A DNA stretch of 64,000 nucleotides from Gammaproteobacteria bacterium (GTDB lineage Bacteria > Pseudomonadota > Gammaproteobacteria > HK1): positions 1 to 64,000 of the forward strand of contig JAJEAD010000059.1 in the NCBI GenBank assembly GCA_022824305.1, given 5' to 3'. This document shows, one piece after another, positions 15,676 through 37,929 of this stretch. The notes beneath the pieces are model-generated. The model saw nothing but the letters and a program-made list of their open reading frames with translations, ran no database searches and was not told the origin of the DNA. Position numbers and translations under genes: made by a program. How positions within the stretch are numbered: position 1 is the first letter of the stretch; each line of letters starts with the position of its first letter.

Positions 15676-15810
15676 TGTTCTTACCTATCCGGATCTCCGG
15701 CCTTGCGAAGAGAGAATGCGCCTCCAATCATGTACCGACCAGCATGGCTGGTGCGCAAAAGCATGTTTCAACGGTGGCAAACACATTGACCCCAAGCGGG
15801 AGCCTGCTCA

Positions 15811-16956
15811 TCAGTCTTCGTCTTCGATCACCGTCAGATCGCGGGGATTTGCGAGACGCCAGCGTTGGCCCTCCCGGTGCAGGTCGCCTTCGAGTGACAC
15901 ACCCAATCGTCTATCGTGGGCACTTGTGATCCTGCTGTACTCGGCCGGATGGAAGTCCACCTTGACCGATGACAGCGCACCGTCGATCACGGCCTTGATG
16001 GTCACCGTGCCTTCGGGCTCGGACTGGTCACGGGTCAAATTGGAGACGTATCCCTCGATTCGCTCGTCGTAACGCTCCTGTCCATCGCTGAGGATTCGCG
16101 CGGCCTCCTCGAGCACAGGAGCATCAGACGGCGCGAATGCCACCACGGCTCCTTCATCCGTCTGTTCTTCGTGCGGCTGTCTTGTGAGCGCCCAACTGAC
16201 GGATACGTCCAATCCACCGCCGATGTTGATCAGATTGGCGCTGGCCTGGCACAGGTTCGCACTTATGCCTTTCCCGACCCGTTCCTCGAATGCACGAATG
16301 TCTCCCCCGCGATTGAAAAGCTCCGTTGCCTCGCGCGAGGCGCGCAGCCCGGAGACGAGCATCCGGGCGACCCGCCGCTCGAAGGGATCCAACAAGGGCA
16401 GTTGTTGTGCCGATTCCGGCTTTGTCAGCGATGGTGTGACGGGGGCCAGGAGGTTGACCACGAAGCTACCAGGCTCGGTCTGGCCCAGTCGCACGTGCTC
16501 GACATAGGCAGCAGCCTTCTGGTCGCGTCCGGCACGGAACAACCGCTGGGGGCGAGAGGCCGAGCAGGCGGCGGCCAGGAGTAGCTTGCGAGAATCATCG
16601 AGGAGGCTGACGCCGGCGGAGAGAGGGATGGAGCTGTCATCGAACGTCCTGTGCAAGCGCACGCGGATCAGGTCCACCTCCGCCAGCGACAGGTCGGTGA
16701 GCACCGTTGATTGACGGCGATTCTCTACACGGCCGAGAGTCTCGACGAGCTGCATGAGTCTGGTCACATAGTCCGCAAACTTGGCAGACGCTGGTACGAG
16801 GACGGCTTCCCGTTCGTCTTCGCGCAGGCGGTACACGTCACCCGTGTTGCCATGGTAGGGACCCAGCTTCATCCAGCCATTGGCTGCCAGATACGCATGC
16901 ACACCCCGCGGGGTGACGGCCTCGGCGAGCGCGATCTCAGTGGCCTCGATATTCAT
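15811..16956 (-). CDS. Unrecognised 381-aa protein, last gene of the phosphorothioation operon
   Basis: I do not recognise this family. The start at 16956 overlaps the DUF4365 gene stop as ATGA and has an AGGGGG Shine-Dalgarno; frame upstream of it is shadow. It is soluble, with no signal peptide or membrane segment. Visible features are an N-terminal AYLAANGWMKLG stretch, a central region rich in hydrophobic and acidic residues, GQTEPGSFVVNLLAP near residue 160, and an acidic end (VIEDED). No catalytic motif stands out. Tight coupling to the DUF4365 protein suggests the two work together. Confidence 0.75.
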   Translation of the reverse strand: MNIEATEIALAEAVTPRGVHAYLAANGWMKLGPYHGNTGDVYRLREDEREAVLVPASAKFADYVTRLMQLVETLGRVENRRQSTVLTDLSLAEVDLIRVRLHRTFDDSSIPLSAGVSLLDDSRKLLLAAACSASRPQRLFRAGRDQKAAAYVEHVRLGQTEPGSFVVNLLAPVTPSLTKPESAQQLPLLDPFERRVARMLVSGLRASREATELFNRGGDIRAFEERVGKGISANLCQASANLINIGGGLDVSVSWALTRQPHEEQTDEGAVVAFAPSDAPVLEEAARILSDGQERYDERIEGYVSNLTRDQSEPEGTVTIKAVIDGALSSVKVDFHPAEYSRITSAHDRRLGVSLEGDLHREGQRWRLANPRDLTVIEDED

Positions 16957-17468
16957 GGCTTCTGCCCCCTCAGCCGCGCCGTCAGCGGCGCGATCCCATC
17001 CGGGCCGAATCGTTGCACGGTCGGAACCACGATCATCCTTGACGCAGCGTCCGTCGGTTCGGATCCCGGTAGCGATGCCCACCAGCCGCAACGCCGCATC
17101 GTCATATGTTCAACGCTGCACTCCAGCCATTCTGCCTCGTTCGACGGTAGCTCGAGGACGAGAAGTATCAGAGGCGTCATGCGGGTGGTGGTGAGATCGT
17201 TGTAGTTCTTTCCGGACAGCCTGAAATGGAGGCCGTCTTCTTTCCCGTCCGGAGCGGATGTCGCCTTGAGCTGTACGTCGAACTGCGTCCGCATCGAGTC
17301 ACCGGAGCGAATGGTCGCATCGATGCTGTCCATGTCGGGCTGAGGGCCACGCTGACAGGTATAGCCAGCCTTGGCGGCGAGTGCAGCAAGGTAAGCGAAC
17401 GACAGCTCGGCCTTGCGATCGTTGTCGGTCAGTATCCCGTCAATCATTGGCACCAACCTTGCGAACAT
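16953..17468 (-). CDS. DUF4365 domain protein
   Basis: The 171-residue product matches the DUF4365 pattern: an N-terminal helix with AELSFAYLAALAAKAGY, then D/S/I residues (MDSIDATIRSGD), the QFDVQLKAT strand with a Q-x-K, and a later LILLVLELP strand. The D...QLK arrangement is reminiscent of PD-(D/E)XK-like folds, so a nuclease or nucleic-acid-binding role is possible but unproven. ATG 17468 is taken as the start; ATG 17447 (AAGG upstream) is an alternative. It overlaps the next gene by 4 bases and follows the helicase by 37. Confidence 0.7.
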   Translation of the reverse strand: MFARLVPMIDGILTDNDRKAELSFAYLAALAAKAGYTCQRGPQPDMDSIDATIRSGDSMRTQFDVQLKATSAPDGKEDGLHFRLSGKNYNDLTTTRMTPLILLVLELPSNEAEWLECSVEHMTMRRCGWWASLPGSEPTDAASRMIVVPTVQRFGPDGIAPLTARLRGQKP

Positions 17469-17505
17469 GATCTCGAGGTTTTCCGTCCTCTCATTTTTCT
17501 GTCGT

Positions 17506-19173
17506 TTATTGCACCGACTCCGAAAGAAGGTGTTCCACTCCGACTTCGCGCAGCACTCGGGACCACGCGGTGCTCTCGCTCTGAGCGAGACGCTCCACCG
17601 CGTCCTCGAAGAGCGCACGCTTGGATCTGAGGATGCGCTCCAAGGCTTCCTCGATTGTCCCGCGGCAACAGAAACGGTATACCCGCACCTTACGGGTCTG
17701 CCCAATGCGCACTACCCGATCGCGTGCCTGATCGTTGGACGAAGGATTCCACCACTGATTGAACAGGAACACGTGGTTAGCTTCCACCAGAGTGAGCCCT
17801 TCCCCCCCAATGCGGGTCGAGGCGAGTAGCGCGGTCGCCTGAACGCCACCGTTGCGAAAGCGGGTCACGGCGCGCTCACGCTCCACGCTGTCCATCTCCC
17901 CGACCAACAGCGCCGCCGCTTCCTCGCCCCATCGTTGCGTGATCCGGCGTTGCAGCTCCCGTAGCGCTTCGAGCCGGTACGAGAAGACGACCGCCTTTTC
18001 CCCCTGCTCGCGAATGCGATCGAGTAGGGTGAGGACCCGTTCTACCTTGCAGCTCTGTCCGCTCTCTGGGTCGATGTCGCACAGGGACTGCAGCCGGGTG
18101 AGGAGCGCAAGCTCGTCTCCCTTTTCTCCGGTGCGATAACGCCTCACCGCTTCTCGGTACGCCCGGGTCTGGGCAGCGGAGAGATCCAGCACTTCGATGC
18201 TATCGAGTACCGGCGGAAGCTCCTCCAGGACTTCCTGCTTGCGACGTCGCAGGATGTAGGGGCGCGCCCGGCTACGCAGCGAGGAGGGGTGCAGCTTCCC
18301 GTCGGTGGGAGCAAAGTGCTCCGGCGCCACTAGGGAGAGCAGGGTAGCCAAGTCCTCAAGGTCTCGTTCTAGCGGAGTGCCTGTGAGCGCCCAGAAGCGC
18401 CCGGGCCTGAGTTGAAAGCTGCCCGAGGTGACCCTAGCGTCGCGCTTGCGAAGGCGATGCGCCTCGTCCGCAACCATGAGGCCGGGCGGACTCTCTCGCA
18501 GGACCGTGGGGGGGGTACGGAGCTGTTCGTAGTGGGTCAGCAACACGTGACAGCGTCCGGCCACCGTCCTCCAGGCGTCCTCGCGGATCCGTGCCGGCGG
18601 AGTGAGGATAGCGACACCGAGCTCCGGAGCCCAGCGTCCAAGTTCCCGTTCCCAGGTCGCGACCAAACCCTTCGGACAGACGACCAGAGCGTTTCGAATT
18701 GCCGCACGGTTGAACAGCAGGCGCATGGCCGAGATTACCTGTACCGTCTTCCCCAGTCCCATATCGTCGGCCAGAATCGCGCCGCATCGCCCGAGCAGCC
18801 ACTCTACGCCTTGGCGCTGGAAGGGGTAGAGCGCCTTCAGCTCCGGCGAGTCCAGGAGCAAAGGTCGGATCAATTCGCCGGTCCCCAGCCGGAGTGTGCG
18901 GTACTCCGCCAGCGTCTCGCTTCGAACCCGTCCCCCACCGAAATGGGGCATCGCTGGAACGATGACCTGCGGACTCCGCCCCGCCCGGACCAAGTCCCGG
19001 TACTGTGCGTCGAGGTCCAAGGCCCACTCGCTCGCCAATGCGAGTCTGCGTGCAACAGTAGCGGCCTCACTCCTGCCTTCCGAGTGTGAACGGAGGCGAA
19101 GTATCAAGCCGTTGGTGCCCTCATCCTCCTCCCCCCCGACCTGCATCAAGCACTTGAACGAAGGATCAGTCAT
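17506..19173 (-). CDS. SNF2-family DEAH helicase/translocase
   Basis: The 555-residue protein has the two-lobed SNF2 core: Walker A DMGLGKT (about 137-143), DEAH (about 236-239), motif III LTGTP, and motif VI RVVRIGQTRKVRVYRF. It is short and carries no obvious extra nuclease or target-recognition domain. ATG 19173 was chosen because the reading above it is shadow and AAAGGCGG precedes it. SNF2 ATPases move along double-stranded DNA and often power restriction or remodelling modules. Its place 10 bases after a DGQHR gene recalls restriction genes linked to modified-DNA systems. Confidence 0.9.
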   Translation of the reverse strand: MTDPSFKCLMQVGGEEDEGTNGLILRLRSHSEGRSEAATVARRLALASEWALDLDAQYRDLVRAGRSPQVIVPAMPHFGGGRVRSETLAEYRTLRLGTGELIRPLLLDSPELKALYPFQRQGVEWLLGRCGAILADDMGLGKTVQVISAMRLLFNRAAIRNALVVCPKGLVATWERELGRWAPELGVAILTPPARIREDAWRTVAGRCHVLLTHYEQLRTPPTVLRESPPGLMVADEAHRLRKRDARVTSGSFQLRPGRFWALTGTPLERDLEDLATLLSLVAPEHFAPTDGKLHPSSLRSRARPYILRRRKQEVLEELPPVLDSIEVLDLSAAQTRAYREAVRRYRTGEKGDELALLTRLQSLCDIDPESGQSCKVERVLTLLDRIREQGEKAVVFSYRLEALRELQRRITQRWGEEAAALLVGEMDSVERERAVTRFRNGGVQATALLASTRIGGEGLTLVEANHVFLFNQWWNPSSNDQARDRVVRIGQTRKVRVYRFCCRGTIEEALERILRSKRALFEDAVERLAQSESTAWSRVLREVGVEHLLSESVQ

Positions 19174-19183
19174 TGTCCGCCTT

Positions 19184-20548
19184 TCACGCGGACCCTTGGC
19201 GAGTGATGATATGCGCGCGAGCCGTGGCAATCTCCTGCCACATTTTCTCTATACGGTTCTCCTGTGGAGGTTCGGGATAAAGTAGATCCCTCCAATCTGC
19301 GCGCAAGGTACTCGTGTCGTCCTCGTTGAGCGCATCAAGTCCCACAATCCACCGCAGCAAGCGTGCTCCGATATCCACAGCAAGTTTCCGATCCTCGCTG
19401 CGCATGCGCCATGACTGTTCCTCTGGCGCGGACGGCACAAGTAGCAAGTAACGCCAAGGCGCGTTGTGGAGATCCCACGGAACTTCAGCTAGCGGTTTCA
19501 GCGCCGTTTCCATCGACGAAACATCAGCTTGCGCACCCAATCCTGCGCTGTCGAGCAGAGAGCGAGCGATTTCGCCAAACAGCTCTTGTCCTATGGGCCA
19601 AAACAGCAGATGATCCCGATAGTCGTCGGGATTGGGATCGGGCAATTCATGGCTACGCATGCGCTCAGGACCCTCACGAAGCACGGGAAGGGCAAGTAGC
19701 AGGGCATCCCAGCAATTGCAAAGTGTCTGGTAGTAGCGATCAATCTCGCTCTCATCAGGTCGGAATTGCAGAAAGATCCGGAGATCCTTGGCGCGTCCCC
19801 ATTGTCGGCGCCGCTCAGTGGTCATCAACAGAATCTTGTTGACTTCGTAGAGGGTCTGGAGACTGGTGAAGTGGGACGAGCCGGACTTGAGGTTCTTACC
19901 CTTAGTCAAGACACGAAATGACTGATGTTCAGGATATGGGGCGCGAAAAAACTCATGGTCTGTGATCAGTCTGCGAGTAACGATGGCGAAAACATCGTCC
20001 TCGTCCATGATGATGTTCGTGTCTGCATCGGTAGCCTTAGCGTAACGGTTGAGACTGGAGAAAAGACGCCGATAACGTTGCAACCACAGACTGTCATCTA
20101 CACCCTGGTGCTCCCGAACGACCACAATGACCGACAACTGCTCGTCAGCAAATCCCAGCGGCGCTCCCGCCGGATCCGACATCAGTTCCTGTATGGCCTT
20201 CAAGCGATGTTGCCCATCGAGGGCGTAGTAGCGAGGGTCCACCTCGAAGGACAGCTCTCCAAAGGTGTCGCCGAAGCGGGATTCCATGGGAGTCCACCGT
20301 GGGTTGCCGCCGATAGCAGCAACAACGAGGGAGGCGAAGAAGCGGTCGTCGCGACGCGACAGGAAGTTGACGATCTGGTTCTTGACTCTTGATTCATTGA
20401 GTACGCGCTGTATGGCGTCGCTCAATGTCTTGTCTTCCCACAAATCGCTCGCAAGCTGCACTTCGCGCGCCACCTCACGCATGGTCATGCGGACAATGTA
20501 GTAGTCCCAGTCGCCCATGCGCGCTCTAATCGCTGGATAGAGTTGCAT
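19184..20548 (-). CDS. DGQHR-domain protein, second copy (DndB-like)
   Basis: The 454-residue protein carries YALDGQHRLKAI near residues 107-118, with a following R..F..LNRYAK helix. This is the hallmark of DGQHR/DndB-like proteins, whose core belongs to the ParB/DUF262-type nucleotidase superfamily. In Dnd clusters such proteins regulate or accompany phosphorothioation. The sequence around it is visibly AT-richer than the ssp genes. It is not a simple duplicate of the neighbouring DGQHR gene: similarity by eye is limited to the motif region. It may sense modification state or hydrolyse nucleotide for a restriction complex; this is inference. Confidence 0.8.
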   Translation of the reverse strand: MQLYPAIRARMGDWDYYIVRMTMREVAREVQLASDLWEDKTLSDAIQRVLNESRVKNQIVNFLSRRDDRFFASLVVAAIGGNPRWTPMESRFGDTFGELSFEVDPRYYALDGQHRLKAIQELMSDPAGAPLGFADEQLSVIVVVREHQGVDDSLWLQRYRRLFSSLNRYAKATDADTNIIMDEDDVFAIVTRRLITDHEFFRAPYPEHQSFRVLTKGKNLKSGSSHFTSLQTLYEVNKILLMTTERRRQWGRAKDLRIFLQFRPDESEIDRYYQTLCNCWDALLLALPVLREGPERMRSHELPDPNPDDYRDHLLFWPIGQELFGEIARSLLDSAGLGAQADVSSMETALKPLAEVPWDLHNAPWRYLLLVPSAPEEQSWRMRSEDRKLAVDIGARLLRWIVGLDALNEDDTSTLRADWRDLLYPEPPQENRIEKMWQEIATARAHIITRQGSA

Positions 20549-20593
20549 AGTCTTGCTTGCCCTCTGATACGCCAGTCACGCCAATCCACGTAC

Positions 20594-22420
20594 CTACACT
20601 TTCTCCTTCCTCTTCTTCTCGATCTTGTCCAACTCGCGCTCGATCCGCCTTATGTGATTACCAGCCAGTTTGTTGGCTTCCCCATTTACAGCGTCCGTTA
20701 GCGGTCTGCCGCCGTCTGGGTACTTCAGTTTGAGCGGCGGTCGAATCTCCCTTCTGTACCCCCGAAATACCGTGCCACGTAGAGATTCAAGAAGAAGATC
20801 CCTTGAAGCAGGCCAATCGCCCTTCCACTGTTTAGGTATTGGCCAACCATATGCCGTCGTAAGGAGCTGTAGGTATGCACCCAATGCGGACTCCGCGTGC
20901 TCTAGACGGTAGTTGACAATAACATCACTGTGATCTTCCACTATATGACGCAATAGTTTTCGTTGGGGTGTTCTGCGGTGAAGCTCTAGCCATTTGTCAT
21001 GGTACAAGCGGTTCAGTGCTGTCACGAACCACTTCGCGTACTCCATCCATGGGGGCCGAGAAAAGATGTAGTGTAAATTGCCAAACGCGCAGAAGACGCC
21101 GCGCATGCCAATGTCGAGATCTACAGGGGGCTTCAGCCATTCGCCCTTCAATTCCTCGATTTCCTGCTTGAGAGTGACAAGCAAGCGATCGACATCCTGC
21201 TTTACGGCATCGGGGGCAAGGTTCGTTCCAAAGCGCAACTCATAGAACGCATGACGTGCAAGATCGGACTGCTGAGACTTCTCGTGCTTCCGCTCCAGCT
21301 CACGGAGGGCCGTGACATATGAGCGGTAAGGATAAAAGTTCTCAAGTACATGGGCAACGGCTGGTAGTAACTCTTTGCCAGCCAGTTCTCGCAACTGCTT
21401 AGAATCGGAGTGGTTCAGTGTTCGATCATGGAAGGCATCGTGTAGCCTATTTGCCGGGTTGATACCCAAGGCGATCTCTTGATCGGCGTCGAAATCCTCA
21501 CCAAGTATGTAGTACTCGAACCAATCATGGATCTCCTTGATGCCTTTGACCGCCGCGGGCGCATGGACGCGTCGCTGCTCGCTTTCCTCTCCACGCCAGT
21601 CATAGAATAACAGCGGCAAGCGTCCAGATATCCGTTGATCAGCCGACATCAGGTCATTCGCATGAGAGAGTTGTACTAACTCTTGCGTACAGACCGCGTT
21701 TACGCTCTCATCGGAAAGCAGTATCTCTCGCGTTGGATTGACCCTCTGGGCTTGGGTGTTGATGTAGACAAATATGCTGCGTACTACGTCGAGGACACTC
21801 GGTGGGTCTGTTTGATCGGTGTCTGCTCGGAAGGATACCACTACAATGGGTATCCGCCACGTGCGGAAGTTGGGATGAGCATCCGTTTGACGGTCATGTC
21901 TGAAGCGCTTTAGGGCCGACAGCCGATGTTGTCCATCAATGGCGACAAGTTTTGTTCGAATATCGTTCCACTCCAAGACGGCGTACTGAGGATAGTCACG
22001 TATCCAGCGAACGCAGTGAAAGGTCGGCCTTTCTATCAGATCCCATTCATTGCCATCCTTTTGTACGGAAGACTTGATGGCCCTGGGCATCTGCGAAAGA
22101 ACTAGGTCGTCATCGTCCTGCATCGGAAGCAGCGTTAGCGTGAGAGGGTTGAAGAACTTGATTTTTTCCGCATCCTGTAGATATGGAAGCAGTGAGTTCG
22201 TTATCCGGTCATTGTCGACGTCGCGTTGAAAGAGATCACTTACTGGCCATCGCTCGGAGCCCCTGATGTCGCTGATTAGGGAGATCCAATCCAACTGTAC
22301 GGGAGTGAGCGCGGATTGAATGTAGAAGGCATTAATTCCGGCACCGGATCCGAATTGCCCGTATACACCGTGGAGCTGATGGTTGTATTGTTGTTTTACT
22401 ATCGGGGGGTTGACAGGCAT
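20594..22420 (-). CDS. DGQHR-domain protein, first copy
   Basis: The 608-residue protein has LVAIDGQHRLSALKRFRHD (about 163-181), followed by the second conserved patch FVYINTQAQRVNPTREILLSDES (about 218-240). This arrangement is typical of full-length DGQHR proteins. The C-terminal half is helical and ends in a very basic tail (ELDKIEKKRKEKV). TAGGA sits 8 nt before ATG 22420. The gene is about half AT, in contrast to the 65-70% GC genes around the operon, which suggests a different recent origin. It lies 9 bases after the GIY-YIG-like gene and 45 bases before the second DGQHR gene. Confidence 0.8.
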   Translation of the reverse strand: MPVNPPIVKQQYNHQLHGVYGQFGSGAGINAFYIQSALTPVQLDWISLISDIRGSERWPVSDLFQRDVDNDRITNSLLPYLQDAEKIKFFNPLTLTLLPMQDDDDLVLSQMPRAIKSSVQKDGNEWDLIERPTFHCVRWIRDYPQYAVLEWNDIRTKLVAIDGQHRLSALKRFRHDRQTDAHPNFRTWRIPIVVVSFRADTDQTDPPSVLDVVRSIFVYINTQAQRVNPTREILLSDESVNAVCTQELVQLSHANDLMSADQRISGRLPLLFYDWRGEESEQRRVHAPAAVKGIKEIHDWFEYYILGEDFDADQEIALGINPANRLHDAFHDRTLNHSDSKQLRELAGKELLPAVAHVLENFYPYRSYVTALRELERKHEKSQQSDLARHAFYELRFGTNLAPDAVKQDVDRLLVTLKQEIEELKGEWLKPPVDLDIGMRGVFCAFGNLHYIFSRPPWMEYAKWFVTALNRLYHDKWLELHRRTPQRKLLRHIVEDHSDVIVNYRLEHAESALGAYLQLLTTAYGWPIPKQWKGDWPASRDLLLESLRGTVFRGYRREIRPPLKLKYPDGGRPLTDAVNGEANKLAGNHIRRIERELDKIEKKRKEKV

Positions 22421-22429
22421 CTCTAGTTC

Positions 22430-23056
22430 CTACTTTAAGCTGAATGGGGGGCGGCAGAACTGCATAAGGAGCCGTTCGATCAATTTGTCGACGTCGTCTT
22501 GTGCAAGGTCTCCAAAGGCTCTGTCTAGTCCTCGCTCTGTCTTTATGCAGACGAAAATCAGATCACTCACGCTGACCTTGAGTCCGAGCGTCGTGACGTA
22601 GTTTGTGAACCTGGAGTGAAATGCACTTCCGGTTGTGTGTTCCAGATAGCGGCGTCTTAGGTTGCTAGTTCGACCGACGTAAAGGGGAGGCATCAGTAGA
22701 CTAGCTTCCAGGAGGATCTGTTGAAGTGCATGTCGCGTGGGGTTATCCGCATAGATGTTGTTCCAGGTCGCACGGATGTCGTCTGTGGCGTGGAACGCGG
22801 CCTTGGGTCGTACTCGCAAGTTCATGGATTGCCATGTGAAGGACACATCTATCTCTTTTTCCGATACGTGGTCGTACGAAACCATGTTACCTATGATTTG
22901 CATGAGTTCATCATGGTTCTCACGGTAGAACCATAGAGGCAGAAACCAAGCGTAACAGCCGGGTTCTTCAGGTACGTCGTGGCGTGTTTCTTTGGTGTAG
23001 AAGGCGAGCCGGCCGTCGACGCTTTCCAGGTTTCGGAAGGCGTTTAGAGGTCCCAT
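22430..23056 (-). CDS. GIY-YIG-like nuclease with long insertion
   Basis: The 208-residue protein has PGCYAWF (GxY at 33-35) and PLYVGRTSNLRRRYLEH (YVG at 126-128, Arg near 136, His140). A C-terminal Glu (E194) precedes a RPPFS end. This matches the order of GIY-YIG catalytic elements (GxY, YxG, R, H/Y, E). About 90 residues separate GxY from YVG, where usual members have about ten, so either the fold holds an insertion or the first motif is fortuitous. ATG 23056 is 8 bases past the cysteine desulfurase stop; the longer upstream frame is shadow. It is a good candidate for the DNA-cutting subunit. Confidence 0.65.
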   Translation of the reverse strand: MGPLNAFRNLESVDGRLAFYTKETRHDVPEEPGCYAWFLPLWFYRENHDELMQIIGNMVSYDHVSEKEIDVSFTWQSMNLRVRPKAAFHATDDIRATWNNIYADNPTRHALQQILLEASLLMPPLYVGRTSNLRRRYLEHTTGSAFHSRFTNYVTTLGLKVSVSDLIFVCIKTERGLDRAFGDLAQDDVDKLIERLLMQFCRPPFSLK

Positions 23057-23064
23057 GTCGTTGA

Positions 23065-24309
23065 CTATGCTCCCAACTCTTGTAAGCGACAGACCGCTTC
23101 GGCAATACGGCGGGAGGCATAGTGGAGTTCGGCGCGGGTTGTGCTGCGGCCTACGGCAATTCGAAGCGAAGCATGGGCTTGTTCTTTGCTGCGACCGATT
23201 GCACGCAGAACGGGCGAGGGTTCTGGAGTGCCGGAATGGCACGCTGACGCAGCTGAGATGTGGAGATCTGGGAGACGGGCGACTAGTGCATCCGCATCGA
23301 TGTCCTTGAATGTCAGTGAGCTGAAGCCGGGCAATCGATTGTCCAAGGCGCCATTCAGTGTGGTGTGTTTGATTCTGTCTTGGATTAGTGTCTCGAAGTC
23401 GTTTCGGAGTGTGGCTATTCTTCGTGCATCTTCGGGGAGTCGCTCGGAGGCGAGTCGGACCGCCTCGCCGAAGCCGGTGATGGCTGGGGTGTTGGATGTA
23501 CCGGGGCGCAGACTATGTTCGTGCCCGCCACCAAACAAGAGAGGAACGATGGGTGCGCGTGTGGGGCCGCCGCACACCCACAAGCCGCCTACACCTTTCG
23601 GGCCATAGCACTTGTGGGCGCTGAAGGAGGCGAAGTCGAGACCGAGTATTTCGACGTCGAAGGGGATCTTTCCGAGGGCTTGCGTCGCGTCGCTGTGTAC
23701 GAGGGCACCATGGTCATGGGCGAGACGAGCAGCGGCGGCGAGGGGCTGGATGGTTCCGATTTCGTTGTTAGCGGTCTGGATGGACAGCAGTAGGGTGTCG
23801 TCCCCAATAGTCGCTTCGAGTGCGGCAAGGTCGACGGTGCCGTCCGAGTGCACCGGGGCGATAGCGAGGTGGTAGCCTCGTTTGCTTAGGTGCCGACAGG
23901 GGCCGAGCACCGAGGGATGTTCAATGCCGAGGGTGACGATGCGTCGGCGGGAGTCGCCGCGTTTTTCGGCCGCGGCGGCAACGCCTAGAATGGCAAGGTT
24001 GTTGCTTTCAGTGGCGCCGCTCGTAAAGACGATTTCCTCCGGGAGGGCGTTGATGGCCGCGGCGACCTGTTCGCGCGCTGTTTCAACGTATTGGGCTGCG
24101 CGCTGTCCGGCCGTATGGGAGCTGGAAGGATTTGCAAACTCGTGGACTGCGATGCGCCTCATCAGGTCCGCTACAGCGGGATCGCAGGGGGTGGAGGCTG
24201 CGTAGTCGAGATAGATCCGCCGCGTAGGTGCCTGCCCAGCCGACTTGGCGCCGGCTGGCGGCTCGGGACGTTCGAGTGCGGGATCACTCACAGGTGACAG
24301 ACCAGGCAC
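23065..24309 (-). CDS. sspA: Cysteine desulfurase of the DNA phosphorothioation operon (SspA/DndA-like)
   Basis: The 414-residue PLP enzyme has the IscS/NifS layout: LDYAASTP, TSGATESNN, H131 in IEHPS, PLP lysine K233 in SAHKCYGPKG, and catalytic C357 in SAASACHSG. It mobilises sulfur from cysteine and hands it to the ATP-pyrophosphatase. The start is GTG at 24309 with GGGAGG 5 nt upstream. It overlaps the preceding gene by 22 bases. Without its neighbours it could be a housekeeping IscS; the operon placement makes SspA/DndA the better call. Confidence 0.85.
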   Translation of the reverse strand: MPGLSPVSDPALERPEPPAGAKSAGQAPTRRIYLDYAASTPCDPAVADLMRRIAVHEFANPSSSHTAGQRAAQYVETAREQVAAAINALPEEIVFTSGATESNNLAILGVAAAAEKRGDSRRRIVTLGIEHPSVLGPCRHLSKRGYHLAIAPVHSDGTVDLAALEATIGDDTLLLSIQTANNEIGTIQPLAAAARLAHDHGALVHSDATQALGKIPFDVEILGLDFASFSAHKCYGPKGVGGLWVCGGPTRAPIVPLLFGGGHEHSLRPGTSNTPAITGFGEAVRLASERLPEDARRIATLRNDFETLIQDRIKHTTLNGALDNRLPGFSSLTFKDIDADALVARLPDLHISAASACHSGTPEPSPVLRAIGRSKEQAHASLRIAVGRSTTRAELHYASRRIAEAVCRLQELGA

Positions 24310-25100
24310 CCGTCCTCCCCGTCGTCGTCCAGTTCCGAGAAACCGAAGGCTTGAGCGAGATTTCGTGGTCGTCTGCGGGCGGCGAGGCGCTCGCGCCGCT
24401 CACGCTCTCGTTGCAGGATTTGTTCACGACGCTCCGCCCGTTCGAGATCGGTCAAACTCTCATCCCGAATCCAGGTGTAGCCTTGCTCAATCTTCTCGTA
24501 GCCCTTGGCGAGTTCGAAGAGTTCCGGGTGGCGCTCGCGTAGGCGTACCCATTCGGCCTTTTGCTGGAAGAAGCAGAAGTAGCAGCCGGAACGTGAGCGC
24601 CACTCGTAGTAGCTCGGCAGACCGACTCCGCTCTCCTCGAGAATGCGCATCACCCCCGGTTTGTCGATGCCGTCATCCTTGAACGGAAAGACCGCTCGAA
24701 TGTTGTCCTTTGTAGATATGTATCCGCTGCGTCGCTCATCGGAACGCAGACCAACGTAAAGCAGCGTGGGATCGTCGCCGACATATCGCTCGAAGGGCTC
24801 TATCTTCAGCAGGCGGGTGCACCATCGCTGCTTGGGGGAGGGGAGGTAGTCGCCGTAGAGCTTCAGATAGTGGTCGAAGCCGCGCTCGGCGTGATGGGAA
24901 GCAAGGCGTTCGATCGGCTTACCCAGGTACGCTTCGATTCGGGTCAGGTACTCGTAGGTCTCCGGTAGCTCTTTGTGCGTATCGCAGAAGACGTACTCGA
25001 AGTTACGTTCCGGATTACGGTCTCTGAGGTAGAGCGCGAGCGCGGTACTGTCCTTGCCTCCGGAGAGCATGACAACGTGTCTGTGATTGGCAGTAGTCAT
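24288..25100 (-). CDS. sspD: PAPS-reductase-like ATP pyrophosphatase (SspD/DndC-like)
   Basis: The 270-residue protein has the PP-loop SGGKDS (13-18), the RWCTRLLK segment with C94, and CYFC (C173, C176). C94, C173 and C176 are arranged as iron-sulfur ligands in DndC-type enzymes. A further CLVC (C265, C268) lies at the extreme C-terminus. It would adenylate the DNA backbone and insert sulfur supplied by the desulfurase. It overlaps sspC by ATGA and sspA by 22 bases. At 270 residues it is nearer to SspD than to the larger DndC. A BREX-4 BrxP is the other PAPS-reductase-like option but its partners are absent. Confidence 0.82.
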   Translation of the reverse strand: MTTANHRHVVMLSGGKDSTALALYLRDRNPERNFEYVFCDTHKELPETYEYLTRIEAYLGKPIERLASHHAERGFDHYLKLYGDYLPSPKQRWCTRLLKIEPFERYVGDDPTLLYVGLRSDERRSGYISTKDNIRAVFPFKDDGIDKPGVMRILEESGVGLPSYYEWRSRSGCYFCFFQQKAEWVRLRERHPELFELAKGYEKIEQGYTWIRDESLTDLERAERREQILQRERERRERLAARRRPRNLAQAFGFSELDDDGEDGCLVCHL

Positions 25101-28100
25101 TCGGCTGCGTGTTGCACCTCTTCAGGATCTCTTTCGATACTTGCTGGTAGCAGGTCGCGTGCTGCCAGAGCCAGCGCCATCAACTGCGAGCGGTGATCGA
25201 GGCCGCTTCGCTTCGCTGCGCGTTGCAGTTTCTGCATGAGCTGCGCTACGGGGACACGTTCCTCCCTTGACACTGCCACCACCGCGCGGCGTTCGCTCGT
25301 CCCTGGCTCCAATAGACCAATGCTCGCTACGGTTGCTGCCGCGTCGCCTCCCGCAGCGGCAACCAACTCGCTGAGAGTGTCGCACTCCGCCGCCAGAACG
25401 CGCAACTGCGATGCGAAGGCCTCGGCGTCCTGATCGCGCCAGTGAGTGGGTGGCTTGCCGCCTAGAGCTGAGCGGGCGAGCCCTTCGCGCCAGTCTCGGC
25501 CATTCTGCGTGGGCGCCTGTGCGGCCTCTTTCAGGAACACGCGTAACTTGGTGTTGCCGGCGTACTGCACGAGGGGCAGGGTGCGGTGGCGCAGGGCCTC
25601 TCGCAGTTCTCGGCCGCGTTCGTGCATGCCGAGGGATTCCCGTACTTGCTCTTCGACCTCATCAAGCAGGTCCGGAAACGCGCGCGTCAGGTCTCGAATG
25701 CTTCCGCGCAAACGACGCGCGAATAGCGTTGGGCCGTCGGTGGATTTGAAATCCACGCCTAGCGCCCGAGGTAGGTCCTCGAGCAGCAGGGAGCGGGGGT
25801 CTCTTGCATTGTGCAGCAGCTCCCGCACGGCCCGGGAGGACGCAGGGAGGCGCTGCGTGGAGCGCGCGTAGGGCGGCAGCGTTCCGGTCAAACGTACGAG
25901 CTCTCGCACGATTTCGATGAGGCCAGCGGTGTTCTCCTTCGACTCGTCGTTGCCGGGGCGCGTCGTCTGCCGAGCCAGGTCTCCCAGGGCTTCGATCACC
26001 CGGCGCTCACGTGCGTTGAGCCGATAGCAGCGCAACGCAAAGGTGTGAGGCCGGCGTACCAGGCGCTCCAAGGTCTCTATGCCGACGTCGGGGACGAAGA
26101 GGCCATCCTCGTAGAGCGCCAACTCCTCTCCCTTGACTTGAAGAACGGCGGCTATCAGCACCGGCAGAGGGCCTTCCCGGAGCCCGAAAGGGGGAGCGGT
26201 GAGCGATTCGATCAGCTCGGTGAGCGGACGCTGGCGATCTCTCGCTCCAGCGAGAAAGCGTTCGATTTCTCGCCAGACGGGCTTCCATGGCGAACGGCCT
26301 CGGCTGGCCGGTGCGTGCAGCCGGAAGGCGTCATCGACGGCTTTGCCGTGAAAACCGCCCTCGACGAGCAGGGCCTGGTACATGCTGTACTCGGGCGGGA
26401 AGCCCTCGATACCGAGGCGTTCGCGGTGGCTGTCGAAGACCATTCGCTCCAGCAGGTTGCGGCGTGCCCGTGCGGCGGCACTCGACAGGTCTGCACGGTT
26501 CAGCAGTTCGTTGCGCAGCGGAGGAGCATCTTCGTACGTCTCATCGCAGATCCTCGAGAGCAGGTCCTGCAGCTCGCGCGGGTGCTTTGGATCCGGAGAG
26601 CACCTTCGCCCCTGGTAGAACCACATCGAAGCCCCTGGGTCGAGCACGTGACCGAGCAGACCGAGGGTGCGGCCCGCGGCGCGTTCGAAACGGCTGCGCG
26701 CGTCTGCGCTGCGTGCCATGACCTCCTGCCGGGCAACTGGGTCTCCCTCCAGTTCGGGGAGGTTCTCTCGTACCCATTGCCAGCACTCGAGTTCGTTCAG
26801 TTCCTCGGCGAGCCGCGCTGCGGTGTGGGGTGCCGCTATCAGTACCGGCTTGGTCGTGCTGAGTACGCGGCTGAGGGCGCGCGCCCGTTCATCGCGGGTC
26901 TTGGTGTCGAGCGAAGTATCGACCAGGAAGAGCACGAATCCGTCGGCCCGTGACGTTTCGGTGAGGGCGCTTTCCACCGAATCAGCGGAGAACGTCGCCA
27001 TTCGTGGCTCGAAAAAGCGCAGCGTGCCGGTCCTTATGTAGTGTGCCCGAGCCACCAGCGGCCGCGGCCGACCGGCGCGCAGCAGGCGCTGGTGCAAAGG
27101 CTCGCCGCCGTGCTGTCCGCGCGCCGCCTCGAATGCGGCCTCAAGATCGATGTCGGAACCTTCCCACAGCCCAAATGCCCTGCGATGGCGCCGGTAGACG
27201 ATGATGGATTCGCGCTCCAGCAGGGCAATCGCCTCGTCTGCGCTGTCGCGGTTGCTCTCGTTGAAGGCGGCGTGGAGCAGTTCCCGGCTCGGTCGTAGTC
27301 CGACCGAATCGCCATACAGGGCGAGTAATCCGATGCTCTTGACGAGGTCACGAGCAAGCGGCGGTGCGGCGGCGGGTACGCGCTCGATCGCGTGCGCGAT
27401 CAGGCTCCACTTTCGGGCGTCTTGTCCGGTGAACGCCGCTGTGCCGAGTGCGCTGAAGACGTAGTCGTAGAGAGCAGGCAGGCCGTAGAGTGGGGCGTGT
27501 CGCGCTGAGGCGCTTTCCCGTGAGAGAAACTCCTGGAAGCCGTGAGGCTCATGGCTGCTCAGGAATGCGAAGAGCGAACGCTCATGCTGTGCGATCTTGC
27601 TGCGGAAGAGCGGCCACAGGATCAGCGCAGTGACAGGATGCAGAGGCAAGCAGTCGAAGACTCGATCTCGGAGGCCTTCGCGTTCGAGTGCTTCGCGCAA
27701 GCCTGCCTTGGCCGAGATGCGATTGAAGCGCCGCTCGTAGGTAGGTCCGAGGTGGGTTTCGAGTGCGCAACCTATGAGGTCGAGGAACTGCTCGCCGGGC
27801 AGGGAGAAAGGAATGTCTCGGAAGCGACCCTGAACCTTCTGCCACTCGGTACGGCGTGCTCCTGCGCCATCGGCAACGTAGTCTCCGAAGCTGGAGTGCA
27901 GCACGCCCATGAATAGCAGGGGAGTTGCGGTGCGGGCCGCTGCTTCGGCGATCTGCTGCAAGAGGAAGACATCCTCGCCGGGTTCCTGGGCCGCGTACTC
28001 GAGGTACTTGCCGAGTTCGTCCACGATCAGCAGAAGACCGCCCGGAGTGCCGGCGGCGGCTTGGATGAGCAGCTCGGTGGCTGCGGCGCCCGCGGTTGCC

Positions 28101-28555
28101 GGGTTCTTGAGCAGCCGGCGTGCCCGGCTCGCAATGGAGCGAGTCGCGGCGCCGCTTGAAAGCAAGGCGTTCAGGATAGCCGGGAGAAGGGGCGCTCGCT
28201 CGGCCTGCACCAGCACCGGCTGAAGCGGCTTCTTGCGGCGGAGGTGAGTCTTGCGCAACTCGCGAGCCTGGGGGTGTCCGGGCTTGGCATTCGCGAGCAA
28301 ATCGGTGAGGAACAAGGCAAACGCGGACTTTCCGGTGCCGTAAGGGCCAGTCAGGGTCCAGGCCCGGGCGCCGCCTTCTCTCCCGAGTTCCTGCAGGATC
28401 TGTCCGGCGAATCCCAGCAATGCGGGAGTGGCCAGGTAGTCGCCCGAATCGTGCGGCGCTTTCCAGTCGTGGGGCAGATGTACCGAACGATGGAATCGCC
28501 CGCGGACGTGCACGTGCTGATCCAGCGTGGTCGTCGGGAGTTTGCCCCGATTCAT
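25097..28555 (-). CDS. sspC: Large P-loop ATPase (SspC-like)
   Basis: The 1152-residue protein has Walker A GPYGTGKSAF (70-79) and Walker B LLLIVDELGKYLEYA (about 174-188; D179, E180). A sensor-like region with LLFMGVLHSSF and an EWQKVQGRF segment follow, and then about 800 residues of mostly helical sequence. It is linked by ATGA overlaps to the DUF4007 gene upstream and the PP-loop gene downstream, which is the sspBCD order. In such systems the ATPase is needed for modification, probably by driving the nickase and sulfur-transfer proteins on DNA. BrxC/PglY is a distant alternative; no PglZ or BrxL accompanies it. Confidence 0.75.
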   Translation of the reverse strand: MNRGKLPTTTLDQHVHVRGRFHRSVHLPHDWKAPHDSGDYLATPALLGFAGQILQELGREGGARAWTLTGPYGTGKSAFALFLTDLLANAKPGHPQARELRKTHLRRKKPLQPVLVQAERAPLLPAILNALLSSGAATRSIASRARRLLKNPATAGAAATELLIQAAAGTPGGLLLIVDELGKYLEYAAQEPGEDVFLLQQIAEAAARTATPLLFMGVLHSSFGDYVADGAGARRTEWQKVQGRFRDIPFSLPGEQFLDLIGCALETHLGPTYERRFNRISAKAGLREALEREGLRDRVFDCLPLHPVTALILWPLFRSKIAQHERSLFAFLSSHEPHGFQEFLSRESASARHAPLYGLPALYDYVFSALGTAAFTGQDARKWSLIAHAIERVPAAAPPLARDLVKSIGLLALYGDSVGLRPSRELLHAAFNESNRDSADEAIALLERESIIVYRRHRRAFGLWEGSDIDLEAAFEAARGQHGGEPLHQRLLRAGRPRPLVARAHYIRTGTLRFFEPRMATFSADSVESALTETSRADGFVLFLVDTSLDTKTRDERARALSRVLSTTKPVLIAAPHTAARLAEELNELECWQWVRENLPELEGDPVARQEVMARSADARSRFERAAGRTLGLLGHVLDPGASMWFYQGRRCSPDPKHPRELQDLLSRICDETYEDAPPLRNELLNRADLSSAAARARRNLLERMVFDSHRERLGIEGFPPEYSMYQALLVEGGFHGKAVDDAFRLHAPASRGRSPWKPVWREIERFLAGARDRQRPLTELIESLTAPPFGLREGPLPVLIAAVLQVKGEELALYEDGLFVPDVGIETLERLVRRPHTFALRCYRLNARERRVIEALGDLARQTTRPGNDESKENTAGLIEIVRELVRLTGTLPPYARSTQRLPASSRAVRELLHNARDPRSLLLEDLPRALGVDFKSTDGPTLFARRLRGSIRDLTRAFPDLLDEVEEQVRESLGMHERGRELREALRHRTLPLVQYAGNTKLRVFLKEAAQAPTQNGRDWREGLARSALGGKPPTHWRDQDAEAFASQLRVLAAECDTLSELVAAAGGDAAATVASIGLLEPGTSERRAVVAVSREERVPVAQLMQKLQRAAKRSGLDHRSQLMALALAARDLLPASIERDPEEVQHAAE

Positions 28556-29550
28556 GTCCCTTCAATTCCGTAGTAGTCCGCCAAGAGCTCCAGAGGGTCG
28601 CGTTCCTCCTTGCGGATTACCCTGCGTTGGCCGGCGGTCTCGTCGTACTGGAACCCCCGACTGGAGGGCATCCGTTCCAGGATTTCGACCAAGTCTCGGT
28701 CGCGCAGCTTGAACGCCGCTCCGGGACTGCCCGGGTCAAAGAGCACGCGCTCCAGCGCCAGAACCTCTCCGCCCGGCGAGTTGTGGAGCCAGTAGTCGGC
28801 GAGTGCGAATGCGAGCACATCGTCGGGCAGACTGGGCCGCGGTCCACGTTCGAACGCGAAGCGACCGGCACCGGCGCGGCTAAGCAATCCGAGTTCGGCG
28901 AGCGGACAATCGAAGCTGTCCTCGAGGGGACGCCGGCGGTCGTCCCTCGCGGGAAGGTAGGTGCGCAGGAAGACATCCACATCCCGCTTTATCGAAGGAA
29001 GAGAGCTGCGGGTCGCCCGGGCTTCGTGTGCGCAGCGCAGCAGCCAGCGTGCAAGCTCGTCTCGGGTAAAGACGCTCTCGCCCCAACGAGTGAAAGCCAG
29101 ATGCCAAGTGGAAGCAGGGAACGGTCTCGAAGCGAGCTGCCAGTGGAGCAGCCAGAGCGTCCCCGGGTCTTCCAGGTAGGGGTCGGCTCCCGCCCGCGCG
29201 TCGGGTGCAGCACTCTTCCGGGCGGCGGAGGATGACGCGGAACCAAAGAGGAGCTCGGCGAGTGGAGTGAGGGCGCCGCGTCGCCCGTGCATCTCGATGA
29301 GCCCAAGCGCCTCGCACCAGAAACGGATTGAGGCGACCATGTTCTTGCCGACGCCGAGCCGAACGAGAGCGTCAGGTTGGGCGAACACCTCGGGGTCGGC
29401 CTGCACGGCGGCTATCCCCTTGGGCAGCCACGCGTAACGGAATGGGAAGGTCTGGTGGCCGGAAAAGCTGTACCGGGTCGAATTTCCCCACCAGCTTGAG
29501 CCTTGGGTCGGGGTTGTTTGGCTCTCCGAGCGGGCCGTCAGCCCCACCAT
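28552..29550 (-). CDS. sspB: DUF4007 protein (SspB-like nickase candidate)
   Basis: The 332-residue protein carries the DUF4007 signature: FSGHQTFPFRYAWLPKG (29-45) and LGVGKNMVASIRFW (65-78). A mostly helical remainder rich in Arg and Asp follows. SspB of the Ssp phosphorothioation system is a DUF4007 protein reported to nick DNA; that part is family knowledge. It is the first gene of the operon. AGGAGG lies only 3 nt from ATG 29550, a tight spacing that may lower initiation. A 164-base gap with no gene separates it from the PIN toxin and must hold the operon promoter; TGTAAACT on the minus strand is a possible -10. Confidence 0.8.
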   Translation of the reverse strand: MVGLTARSESQTTPTQGSSWWGNSTRYSFSGHQTFPFRYAWLPKGIAAVQADPEVFAQPDALVRLGVGKNMVASIRFWCEALGLIEMHGRRGALTPLAELLFGSASSSAARKSAAPDARAGADPYLEDPGTLWLLHWQLASRPFPASTWHLAFTRWGESVFTRDELARWLLRCAHEARATRSSLPSIKRDVDVFLRTYLPARDDRRRPLEDSFDCPLAELGLLSRAGAGRFAFERGPRPSLPDDVLAFALADYWLHNSPGGEVLALERVLFDPGSPGAAFKLRDRDLVEILERMPSSRGFQYDETAGQRRVIRKEERDPLELLADYYGIEGT

Positions 29551-29714
29551 GCTCCTCCTGCAAGCGGTTTGAGAGAGTTTACACCGCGGGGGCCACGGGG
29601 TCGCCCCTTCGGGGGTCGCTAATCGCCCATTTGAGTGTCCGCGGTGGGCCTGCCCGATGTCGGAATTTCGCTCATGCAGATCCGAGGAAAGGATGTCCGG
29701 CGGTCGCCGTGAGC

Positions 29715-30131
29715 TTACGTGTGAACCGGCGTTTCGAGGCCCTCCAGCCGTGCCGCTTCACTCAGCGTTCGGTCGAGCGTGGCGAGCGGGAGGCGCATCC
29801 GCAGGGCGAGCTCGAGGTACATGGCGTCATCGACGGAGAGACGGTGCGCGTTCGCGAGCCCGAGCGTCCTGCCCCATACGCGCGAAGTGGAGACGGGGTC
29901 GATCTCGATGGGCAGCGCGTCCAGGTGGGCGTAGAGCTGCTCCCATTCATCGGGGTCGATTCGTCCCCGGCGGGTTGCAACGAGGAGCACATTGGCCACC
30001 TCCATCGGCCACAGTGCCGGTGCGAAGGCACGTCCCTCGACGAGTGAGTCCCGCAGATGGTCGGTCACCTCGGTAGCTTCGTCGGGGAAGAGCCAGGCCA
30101 GGGCGACCGAGCAATCGAGCACGAAGGCCAT
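29715..30131 (-). CDS. vapC: PIN-domain toxin, VapC family
   Basis: The 138-residue protein has the acidic PIN residues: D6 (FVLDCSVALAWLF), E44 (MEVANVLL), D101/D102 (LSVDDAMYLELAL) and D120 (LATLD). VapC toxins are Mg-dependent RNases that cut tRNA or rRNA. The start overlaps the antitoxin stop by one base (TGATG), the usual coupled arrangement. Confidence 0.9.
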   Translation of the reverse strand: MAFVLDCSVALAWLFPDEATEVTDHLRDSLVEGRAFAPALWPMEVANVLLVATRRGRIDPDEWEQLYAHLDALPIEIDPVSTSRVWGRTLGLANAHRLSVDDAMYLELALRMRLPLATLDRTLSEAARLEGLETPVHT

Positions 30132-30373
30132 CAGAAGCGGCGACCCGCTTCGATCATCCGGCGGACCGAGAGTCCCCGGAGGCGGTGAGTCTCCTGGAAC
30201 GTCTTGAGGCCGGCGATGGCCGTTCGGACCCTGTCGGCATCATGGGCTCCGAACGGAATCAACTCGGCCACCGGGCAATTGTGTTTCGTGATGACGAAGC
30301 GCTCCCCGGATTTCACCCTCTGGAGCAGCTTCGGCAGATGCGTCTTCGCATCAAATGCACCGATTTCAGTCAC
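30131..30373 (-). CDS. vapB: Phd/YefM-type antitoxin paired with the PIN toxin
   Basis: The 80-residue protein opens with IGAFDAKTHLPKLLQRVKSGE and FVITKHNCPVAELIP, the DNA-binding half of Phd/YefM antitoxins, and ends with a basic toxin-binding tail. The start is GTG at 30373 with no strong Shine-Dalgarno. It would neutralise VapC and repress its own promoter. Confidence 0.88.
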   Translation of the reverse strand: MTEIGAFDAKTHLPKLLQRVKSGERFVITKHNCPVAELIPFGAHDADRVRTAIAGLKTFQETHRLRGLSVRRMIEAGRRF

Positions 30374-37593: not shown

Positions 37594-37929
37594 ATGAGAA
37601 CGTCAGCGACACAGGCGCTTCCCAGAGCAGCCAGACAGGCCCTCGCCAAGCTGGGCGCGGACATCGCGGTCGCCCGCAAGAAACGTCGCATCTCGACGGT
37701 CTCGATGGCTGAGCGTGCGTTCATCAGCCGCGGCACCCTCTACAAGGTCGAAAGAGGCTCTCCATCGGTCTCGATGGGCATCTACGCTACGGTCCTGGCC
37801 ATCCTGGGGCTCGCCGACCGCCTCGCCCAGGCGGCCGACCGGCGCAACGATTCCCTCGGACTGGACATCGAAGAGGATCGGCTGCCCAGGAAGGTGCGCC
37901 CGCGCCGCCGCACCCCGACCCCGCCATGA
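37594..37929 (+). CDS. hipB: HipB-like XRE-family antitoxin
   Basis: The 111-residue protein has a helix-turn-helix (LGADIAVARKKRRISTVSM, then AERAFISRGTLYKVERG) and a basic, proline-rich tail. AGGATAA lies about 9 nt before ATG 37594. Its stop overlaps the hipA start (ATGA). It should bind the upstream inverted repeat and hold HipA inactive. Confidence 0.88.
   Translation: MRTSATQALPRAARQALAKLGADIAVARKKRRISTVSMAERAFISRGTLYKVERGSPSVSMGIYATVLAILGLADRLAQAADRRNDSLGLDIEEDRLPRKVRPRRRTPTPP

Follow-up and report, generated by a model that had tools for sequence, protein, structure and literature searches.

The ten-gene operon and its Ssp modification genes

The window analysed here, a stretch of 64,000 nucleotides from a gammaproteobacterium of the HK1 lineage (assembly GCA_022824305.1, contig JAJEAD010000059.1, positions 1 to 64,000), carries on its minus strand a single run of ten open reading frames (ORFs), which reads from 29550 down to 15811 (Table 1). 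Four genes of Ssp-type DNA phosphorothioation stand at its head. They are followed by a gene for a GIY-YIG nuclease-like protein, by genes for a long and a short protein with a DGQHR motif, and by three further genes. The pair formed by the GIY-YIG gene and the long DGQHR gene directly behind it is the main subject of this work.

An initial annotation of the letters alone had described this run and its spacing, with no overlap or gap above 45 bp, and both statements hold. All ten ORFs were found, and with refined starts the junctions are, in order, overlaps of 4, 4 and 22 bp, gaps of 8, 9, 45, 10 and 37 bp, and a last overlap of 4 bp; the 22-bp overlap corresponds to the GTG start of SspA. The four modification proteins had also been named correctly, since hmmscan searches with the Pfam and PADLOC profiles returned clear homologs of SspB, SspC and SspD encoded together and accompanied by a cysteine desulfurase. 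The SspB ORF is the sole DUF4007 match in the whole genome, and the SspA ORF scores equally well as DndA (PADLOC, 437.9 bits). DndC was not found in this genome, the completeness of which was taken as 94.7%. A terminator-like site at 15804-15788, just past the last stop codon, is the only one on the minus strand within 15600-30200. This interval contains seven such sites on both strands, fewer than the shuffle mean of 10.4, and the site is therefore weak evidence. A scan of the same interval found no promoter-like site.

Table 1. Genes of the operon in order of reading, with the profile scores or other evidence on which each assignment rests
Feature	Position	Strand	Evidence
SspB (DUF4007), DNA-binding part of the phosphorothioation module	28552..29550	-	Pfam DUF4007 259 bits; PADLOC SspB 276.5
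SspC, large AAA ATPase	25097..28555	-	PADLOC SspC 948.4 bits over 1-1063 of 1065
SspD, PP-loop/PAPS-reductase-like sulfurtransferase	24288..25100	-	PADLOC SspD 368.8 bits; Pfam PF01507
SspA, cysteine desulfurase	23065..24309	-	PADLOC SspA 440 bits; Pfam Aminotran_5
GIY-YIG nuclease-like protein, 208 aa, first half of the pair	22430..23056	-	ATG 8 bp after the sspA stop
Long DGQHR protein, 608 aa, second half of the pair, putative phosphorothioate reader	20594..22420	-	Leave-one-out hidden Markov model
Short DGQHR protein (DndB-like), 454 aa	19184..20548	-	Pfam DndB 110.6 bits
SNF2-family helicase, 555 aa from ATG (574 aa from upstream TTG)	17506..19173	-	Pfam SNF2-rel_dom 149.6 bits
DUF4365 protein, PADLOC PDC-M02A	16953..17468	-	PADLOC 149.4 bits
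PDC-M02B, 381 aa (initially annotated as unknown)	15811..16956	-	PADLOC 392.9 bits; no Pfam or NCBIfam match

The absence of the known Ssp and Dnd restriction partners from the run was upheld. The Pfam, PADLOC and NCBIfam profiles detected no homolog of SspE, SspFGH or DndFGH among the ten proteins, and Pfam gave no DUF1524 match in any of them. The GmrSD_N (DUF262) profile did not match the long DGQHR protein and gave 15.4 bits with the short one (cut-off 33.2). Hidden homology to SspE or DndFGH was thus looked for in the distal proteins and not found. In the rest of the genome, a DUF262-DUF1524 protein of the HEC-06/Orf5 type lies on the same contig at 92743-94446 (L141:8843-10546), about 63 kb from the operon, with a best SspE score of just 71.6 bits, and a second DUF262 match lies on contig C2. 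The SspH search of the genome matched the end of the profile alone, in one 782-residue frame that we take for FtsK. The DndFGH-type profile TIGR03237 matched nowhere, controls included, and is uninformative for this genome.

Recurrence, sequence and fold of the pair

Plasmid relatives of the long DGQHR protein were found in seven records, and five loci were fetched. A longer DGQHR protein (768-786 residues) stands beside SspA-D on the plasmids of Asticcacaulis and three cyanobacteria, and in Nonomuraea a long relative is found at a Dnd-type locus. In four of the five loci a GIY-YIG-like ORF stops where the DGQHR ORF begins; the exception is the Cyanobacterium HL-69 plasmid. On the Asticcacaulis plasmid pASTEX02 the GIY-YIG ORF (L003:14307-14966) has no entry in the gene table and precedes a gene named DndB; the long DGQHR proteins of two of the three cyanobacterial plasmids are also listed under this name.

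A larger set of loci was collected with a profile of six DGQHR proteins alone, taking one genome per species; 81 loci matched and 80 were kept. Their neighbourhoods were read with profiles built from seeds and iterated, so that scores are inflated, and some related profiles had fused, DndB with that of the short DGQHR proteins and PbeA with that of the SF2 helicase. An ORF of the same GIY-YIG family lies directly upstream of the long DGQHR ORF, on the same strand, at 57 of the 80 loci. The two ORFs overlap by at most 46 bp or are separated by at most 7 bp in 53 of them, and the four longer overlaps were taken as over-long ORF starts. Resolving overlapping ORFs removes L102 and L110 and reduces the 57 GIY-positive loci to 55. 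The loci cover 12 named phyla, with at least one GIY-positive locus in each. Compact examples are the plasmid locus L003 of Asticcacaulis excentricus CB 48 (GIY-YIG, DGQHR and SspA-D) and locus L113 of Pseudomonas graminis WP_8 (SspB, SspC, SspD, GIY-YIG and DGQHR). A search of viral contigs returned two partial relatives. The initial annotation had proposed a search for co-occurrence of all six distal genes with the modification genes: what recurs is the GIY-YIG and long DGQHR pair, and the six-gene set was seen in no other locus examined.

Other proteins take the place upstream of the long DGQHR gene at several loci. At 11 more, all actinobacterial (L109, L112, L114-L116, L122-L124, L128-L130), a member of a second GIY-YIG subfamily is separated from the DGQHR gene by the gene for a GHKL ATPase, which it precedes. 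One of the two proteins tested from this subfamily scored above the Pfam GIY-YIG cut-off (26.9 bits). In L087, L096 and L110 (Burkholderiales) and in L074 the second subfamily and the ATPase are encoded on the opposite strand from the DGQHR gene, so that this subfamily may belong to the GHKL ATPase. At two Myxococcota loci (L078:3214-4452 and L132:5978-7291) an HNH-type protein replaces the GIY-YIG protein; the one from L078, the only one tested, matches Pfam HNH_4.

The catalytic signature of GIY-YIG nucleases is G-x-Y ... Y-x-G ... R ... E. It is present in the window protein and in all 54 aligned sequences, among which, the window included, G33, Y35, W37, P124, Y126, G128, R136, H140, E194 and P203 are invariant. 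A leave-one-out hidden Markov model of 59 relatives found the window ORF with an E value of 1.2e-9, the best of 327 window ORFs. With Pfam PF01541 the protein reached 16.2 bits, below the gathering score of 22.6, and no family relative tested attained that score. The best match of an AlphaFold2 model (predicted local distance difference test score, pLDDT, 73.6) was the GIY-YIG domain of UvrC (1yd6; Z 8.5, 91 aligned residues, root-mean-square deviation 3.2). It was followed by T4 EndoII (Z 7.2), which we take to be a member of the GIY-YIG superfamily, and by R.Eco29kI (Z 6.1-6.5), and these three make up the ten best rows. The next match was Hpy188I at Z 3.0, and clearly unrelated rows did not exceed Z 2.5. 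The invariant signature and the UvrC-type fold match support a nuclease, as had been proposed for this gene.

The long DGQHR protein combines a putative ParB/Srx-type N-terminus with a helical C-terminus. A leave-one-out model of 85 relatives found it with an E value of 2.4e-33, again the best of the 327 window ORFs, and its TIGR03187 score is 32.8 bits (cut-off 58.85). In 45 aligned sequences Q65, R66 and D67, the motif D162-GQHR-166, F217 and N221 are invariant. The protein therefore carries the QR, DGQHR and FxxxN motifs of the ParB/Srx superfamily, a set described as common to the DUF262 and DGQHR domains (PMC4619093). Its structural model (pLDDT 67.2) gave weak matches to ParB (7bnk, Z 5.2; 6sdk, Z 4.9), PadC (Z 5.2), Srx (Z 4.5), BrxU (Z 4.2) and SspE (Z 4.1), within a listed range of Z 5.2 to 3.6; these matches fall at about residues 22-311, mostly 22-226. 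The shared motifs and the weak matches to ParB, Srx, BrxU and SspE support the earlier suggestion that the protein is a relative of the DUF262 sensor domain.

Link with phosphorothioation and proposed role

Modification genes of the Ssp (34 loci) or Dnd (32 loci) type lie within the fetched flanks (at most 10 kb) at 66 of the 80 long-DGQHR loci, and of the 14 loci without them, nine belong to genomes that encode DndC or SspD at another place. By comparison, among 398 genomes of the window's phylum, 11, its own included, gave a strong SspD match, defined here as E 1e-88 or better over 231-277 of 277 positions; at E 0.001 the search matched 191 of the 398, mostly through general PAPS-reductase-type matches. 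A 2011 survey counted DndD in 70 of 1,466 genomes (PMC3226654). No other effector was detected within the fetched DNA at 18 of the 34 loci with GIY-YIG and Ssp genes, using a profile set without SspF and DndFGH and with several contigs being short.

Pairwise distances were compared over the 30 Ssp loci that hold all five genes. The correlation was 0.96 between GIY-YIG and DGQHR and 0.91-0.97 among SspB, SspC and SspD, whereas it was 0.54-0.57 between the two sets, with the best of 500 permutations at or below 0.33. These data suggest two co-inherited blocks that partly re-assort. They also bear on an alternative in which the long DGQHR protein would resemble DndB and regulate either the modification genes or the density of phosphorothioates (PT), and the GIY-YIG protein would be a stand-alone suicide or backup effector. 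Several DGQHR proteins do match Pfam DndB weakly and some are annotated as DndB in plasmids; furthermore, the literature describes DndB as a negative regulator that depends on ATP, and proposes such an effector role for URI/GIY-YIG nucleases that flank Dnd loci (PMC10853773). However, the abutting genes and the correlation of 0.96 argue that the two proteins act together. Of the 32 Dnd loci, 28 have a separate DndB-type gene in addition to the long DGQHR gene, and in 22 it adjoins dndC directly (the DndB and short-DGQHR profiles being merged), and with the DndB equivalog TIGR03233 (cut-off 328 bits) the short DGQHR protein of the window reached 75.9 bits and the long one gave no match. We regard this alternative as unlikely. 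The simpler assignment of the long protein as plain DndB was rejected on the score below cut-off and on the usual co-occurrence of a DndB-type gene in Dnd loci.

The DGQHR tree separates Ssp from Dnd loci. Trees were built by a quick method with L135 left out. Among the 85 rows, 72 were labelled in the first test (13 rows unlabelled) and required one change, compared with at least 14 in 1,000 shuffles. With whole-genome labels and without the window, two changes were required in 78 rows, compared with at least 18 in shuffles and at least 9 in shuffles within phyla; here L068 and L106, whose genomes hold both DndC and SspD, were unlabelled. On the same tree the phylum label changes 23 times. 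The N-terminal 330 residues alone gave two Ssp/Dnd changes, and the GIY-YIG tree one change in 56 (shuffles at least 12). This split fits readers tuned to their own mark. Such close tracking would suit a partner of modification as well, the GIY-YIG protein nicking DNA for sulfur insertion or mending PT lesions under the guidance of the DGQHR protein. We hold that role to be improbable, as PT modification is described under SspABCD or DndABCDE without such genes in the accounts consulted (PMC8092258, PMC11662687), and the pair both re-assorts relative to SspB, SspC and SspD (0.54-0.57) and is absent from all ten other SspD loci of the phylum sample.

Two described systems provide a model for the pair. 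In SspE, PT is read by an N-terminal DUF262 nucleoside triphosphatase (NTPase), which carries a DGQQR motif and licenses the nuclease (PMC9646914, PMC13251355). In DndI, the Dnd equivalent, a DGQQR-motif NTPase senses PT and controls an HNH nickase (PMC11662687). On the observed genes, with their conserved adjacency, co-inheritance, motifs, fold and tracking of modification type, we think it reasonably probable that the pair is a restriction arm accompanying both Ssp and Dnd systems, in which the DGQHR NTPase reads the PT mark and switches a separate GIY-YIG nuclease. By homology, SspA-D would insert single-strand PT into host DNA. The long DGQHR protein, as an NTPase of the ParB/Srx fold, would then recognise the cognate mark and, by binding or hydrolysing NTP, switch the GIY-YIG nuclease so that unmarked DNA is nicked or cut. 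The mark may turn the nuclease on, as in SspE, or hold it off, as in DndI. The pair would thus correspond to SspE and DndI with the two functions split, since those proteins unite reader NTPase and HNH nuclease in a single chain. The predicted outcome is restriction of phages, own and phage DNA being told apart by their marks. We give about even weight to the broader proposal, namely an undescribed PT-dependent module that crosses phyla, is split into Ssp (single-strand) and Dnd (double-strand) lineages and serves as the restriction arm for a share of the partnerless sspBCD loci.

Several observations weigh against a PT-reading restriction pair. With regard to the sensor, P61, Y63 and Q64 of SspE are named, and the PT-sensing tyrosine stands before QR (PMC13251355). 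At this place, aligned by motif and not by structure, the window protein has F and the other 44 sequences have L (24) or M (20), so that the tyrosine is not conserved; these residues are hydrophobic, though not the same. The sensor role first suggested for DGQHR proteins stands as a lead through the motifs shared with SspE and DndI, without the PT-sensing tyrosine being kept. The ParB-type matches of the DGQHR model rank among unrelated helix matches that reach Z 6.0, and Foldseek gave no significant match for this model. For the GIY-YIG model, too, Foldseek was not significant, although its five best rows are GIY-YIG enzymes.

With regard to the loci, ten of the 80 have neither a GIY-YIG nor an HNH gene upstream (of these, the L097 sequence opens within the DGQHR gene, and L135 is fragmentary), and for five of the 80 no PT gene was found in flanks or genome. 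The Myxococcota locus with the HNH partner, L078, falls in the Ssp half of the tree, and its genome has DndC and no SspD match. The tracking of modification type may merely reflect joint inheritance of whole operons. Other effector-type genes are also present at 16 of the 34 loci with GIY-YIG and Ssp genes, and in the window's own genome the DUF262-DUF1524 protein at 92743-94446 could act as effector.

The window's copy of the pair is, in addition, divergent. It is 14-23% identical to its relatives, its DGQHR end branch measures 6.5 with an unresolved position in the tree, and the protein has 608 residues against a median of 756 in 79 relatives. A search with a single protein (P0002) gave no relatives among 273 other genomes of its class, and neither did a scan of genome contigs with the window protein alone. 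Counting the window, the pair is present in one of 11 SspD loci of the phylum sample. The ten others carry instead an SF2 helicase/GHKL ATPase/PLD set, SspG/SspH, SspE or Pbe-like genes. These varied partners indicate that SspBCD takes alternative partners, of which the pair is one of several.

The first of these sets was noted as a separate observation. It comprises an SF2 helicase of about 545 residues, a GHKL ATPase of about 590 and a PLD-family protein of about 310, and lies beside SspBCD at five of the ten loci (L047, L049, L050, L051, L053); it was also seen at L005, L006, L040, L056, L062, L084 and L117. For the set on L051 PADLOC gives distant names only (mREase_IV/PbeA, MzaB, ZacB/DrmC).

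Remaining distal genes and comparison with known systems

For the short DGQHR protein two roles are conceivable, that of a further reader or that of a regulator resembling DndB. Its relatives, for which three of 12 plasmid records were fetched, adjoin Ssp or Dnd genes, and each is preceded by its own GIY-YIG ORF, of another type, at all four loci examined; the window's short protein is without a GIY-YIG of its own. It was found in five of the 398 genomes of the phylum, the window's included. The sole other locus seen with both kinds of DGQHR protein is from Poribacteria (L108:8422-20767), where SspD, the long pair, a short GIY-YIG and DGQHR pair, SspB and SspC form one Ssp locus.

The initial annotation had joined all six distal genes in one restriction machine, with two DGQHR sensors, SNF2 as motor and the GIY-YIG and DUF4365 proteins as nucleases. 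The tight spacing on one strand in the window speaks for it and, weakly, so does the position of the only minus-strand terminator-like site after the last gene. Against it, the set of six was met nowhere else, and the GIY-YIG and long DGQHR genes alone recur as a unit. The SNF2 gene looks generic and is probably a separate addition to the system: its best 12 plasmid relatives are 30-36% identical and, where named, are SNF2-related or DEAD/DEAH helicases. Beside the pair, strong SNF2 matches were seen at L080 and L100 only, both of the DrmD type, and weak ones at L059 and L067, so that a role as motor of the module was not borne out.

A role of the DUF4365 protein as the module's nuclease was likewise not supported. 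Together with the last gene, with which it overlaps by 4 bp, the DUF4365 gene constitutes the adjacent PDC-M02A and PDC-M02B genes of the PADLOC candidate system PDC-M02. PDC-M02B is present in ten of the 398 phylum genomes, the window's included. None of 15 other PDC-M02 loci, several on short contigs, has modification genes beside it; ten of these come from nine other genomes and are all that the phylum search gave, and five come from 18 plasmid records. Neither PDC-M02 gene was found at the 85 other loci that carry a long DGQHR gene. Among the neighbours were a helicase weakly matching the PbeA profile (42 bits, L153) and two DUF262 genes weakly matching the SspE profile (76 and 49 bits, L045). 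No paper on PDC-M02 was found in the open-licence literature. The two genes are probably an independent cassette; PDC-M02 as part of the PT system was rejected on the basis of the 15 loci. With PDC-M02 found apart from modification genes and SNF2 generic, we consider a six-gene machine a poor prospect.

Other genes of the defence type lie in the same region. A protein with Schlafen AlbA_2 and HATPase_c_4 domains is encoded at 13924-15675 of the window (minus strand), 135 bp downstream of the operon, and is possibly co-transcribed with it. An AAA_14/DUF4143 protein (PADLOC PDC-S01) lies at 35943-37202 (minus strand) and a HipA-type kinase at 37926-39149 (plus strand).

Wang et al. reported that 2,211 of 2,678 sspBCD loci have neither sspE nor sspFGH, and asked about further restriction partners (PMC8092258). 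The GIY-YIG and long DGQHR pair is a concrete, widely distributed candidate for such loci and a minimal unit of two genes. If the proposed role is correct, reader NTPase and nuclease would be separable, and perhaps swappable (GIY-YIG, HNH), components of PT defence, and the family would offer a natural series for how proteins tell single-strand from double-strand sulfur marks. We found no description of GIY-YIG and DGQHR proteins as a PT-linked unit in the open-licence literature, a body that leaves preprints, supplements and subscription papers uncovered, so that a prior description is possible.

Compared with SspABCD-SspE, the operon has the same modification genes and a putative ParB/Srx-type domain, marked by a DGQ(Q/H)R motif and accompanied by a nuclease. 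SspE, as described (PMC9646914, PMC13251355), joins a C-terminal DUF1524 HNH domain to its DUF262 sensor, whereas the pair has a separate GIY-YIG chain and a putative DGQHR sensor that lacks the PT-sensing tyrosine. The IscS-DndBCDE-DndI system, like the pair as proposed, adds a reader NTPase and a nickase to a PT modification module; DndI is, however, DUF262-HNH in one chain and is described with Dnd, while the pair accompanies Ssp and Dnd (PMC11662687). SspFGH and DndFGH provide restriction alongside modification modules of this kind (PMC8092258), but have no homologs in the operon, and the pair is without a translocase. The DndB/DGQHR families (TIGR03233, TIGR03187, TIGR04172) have the DGQHR domain in common with the long protein, and their link with phosphorothioation is already known (PMC3226654). 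The long protein differs by its long helical C-terminal part, its GIY-YIG partner and its scores below the family cut-offs. The PADLOC 2.0 candidate PDC-M02 is represented by the last two genes of the operon; its 15 other loci examined have no modification genes. Finally, PT-linked nucleases of the GIY-YIG superfamily have been noted before, as URI/GIY-YIG nucleases near Dnd genes by Rakesh et al.; these are described as boundary, stand-alone and probably suicide effectors, and the section that treats them includes no DGQHR partner or Ssp loci (PMC10853773).

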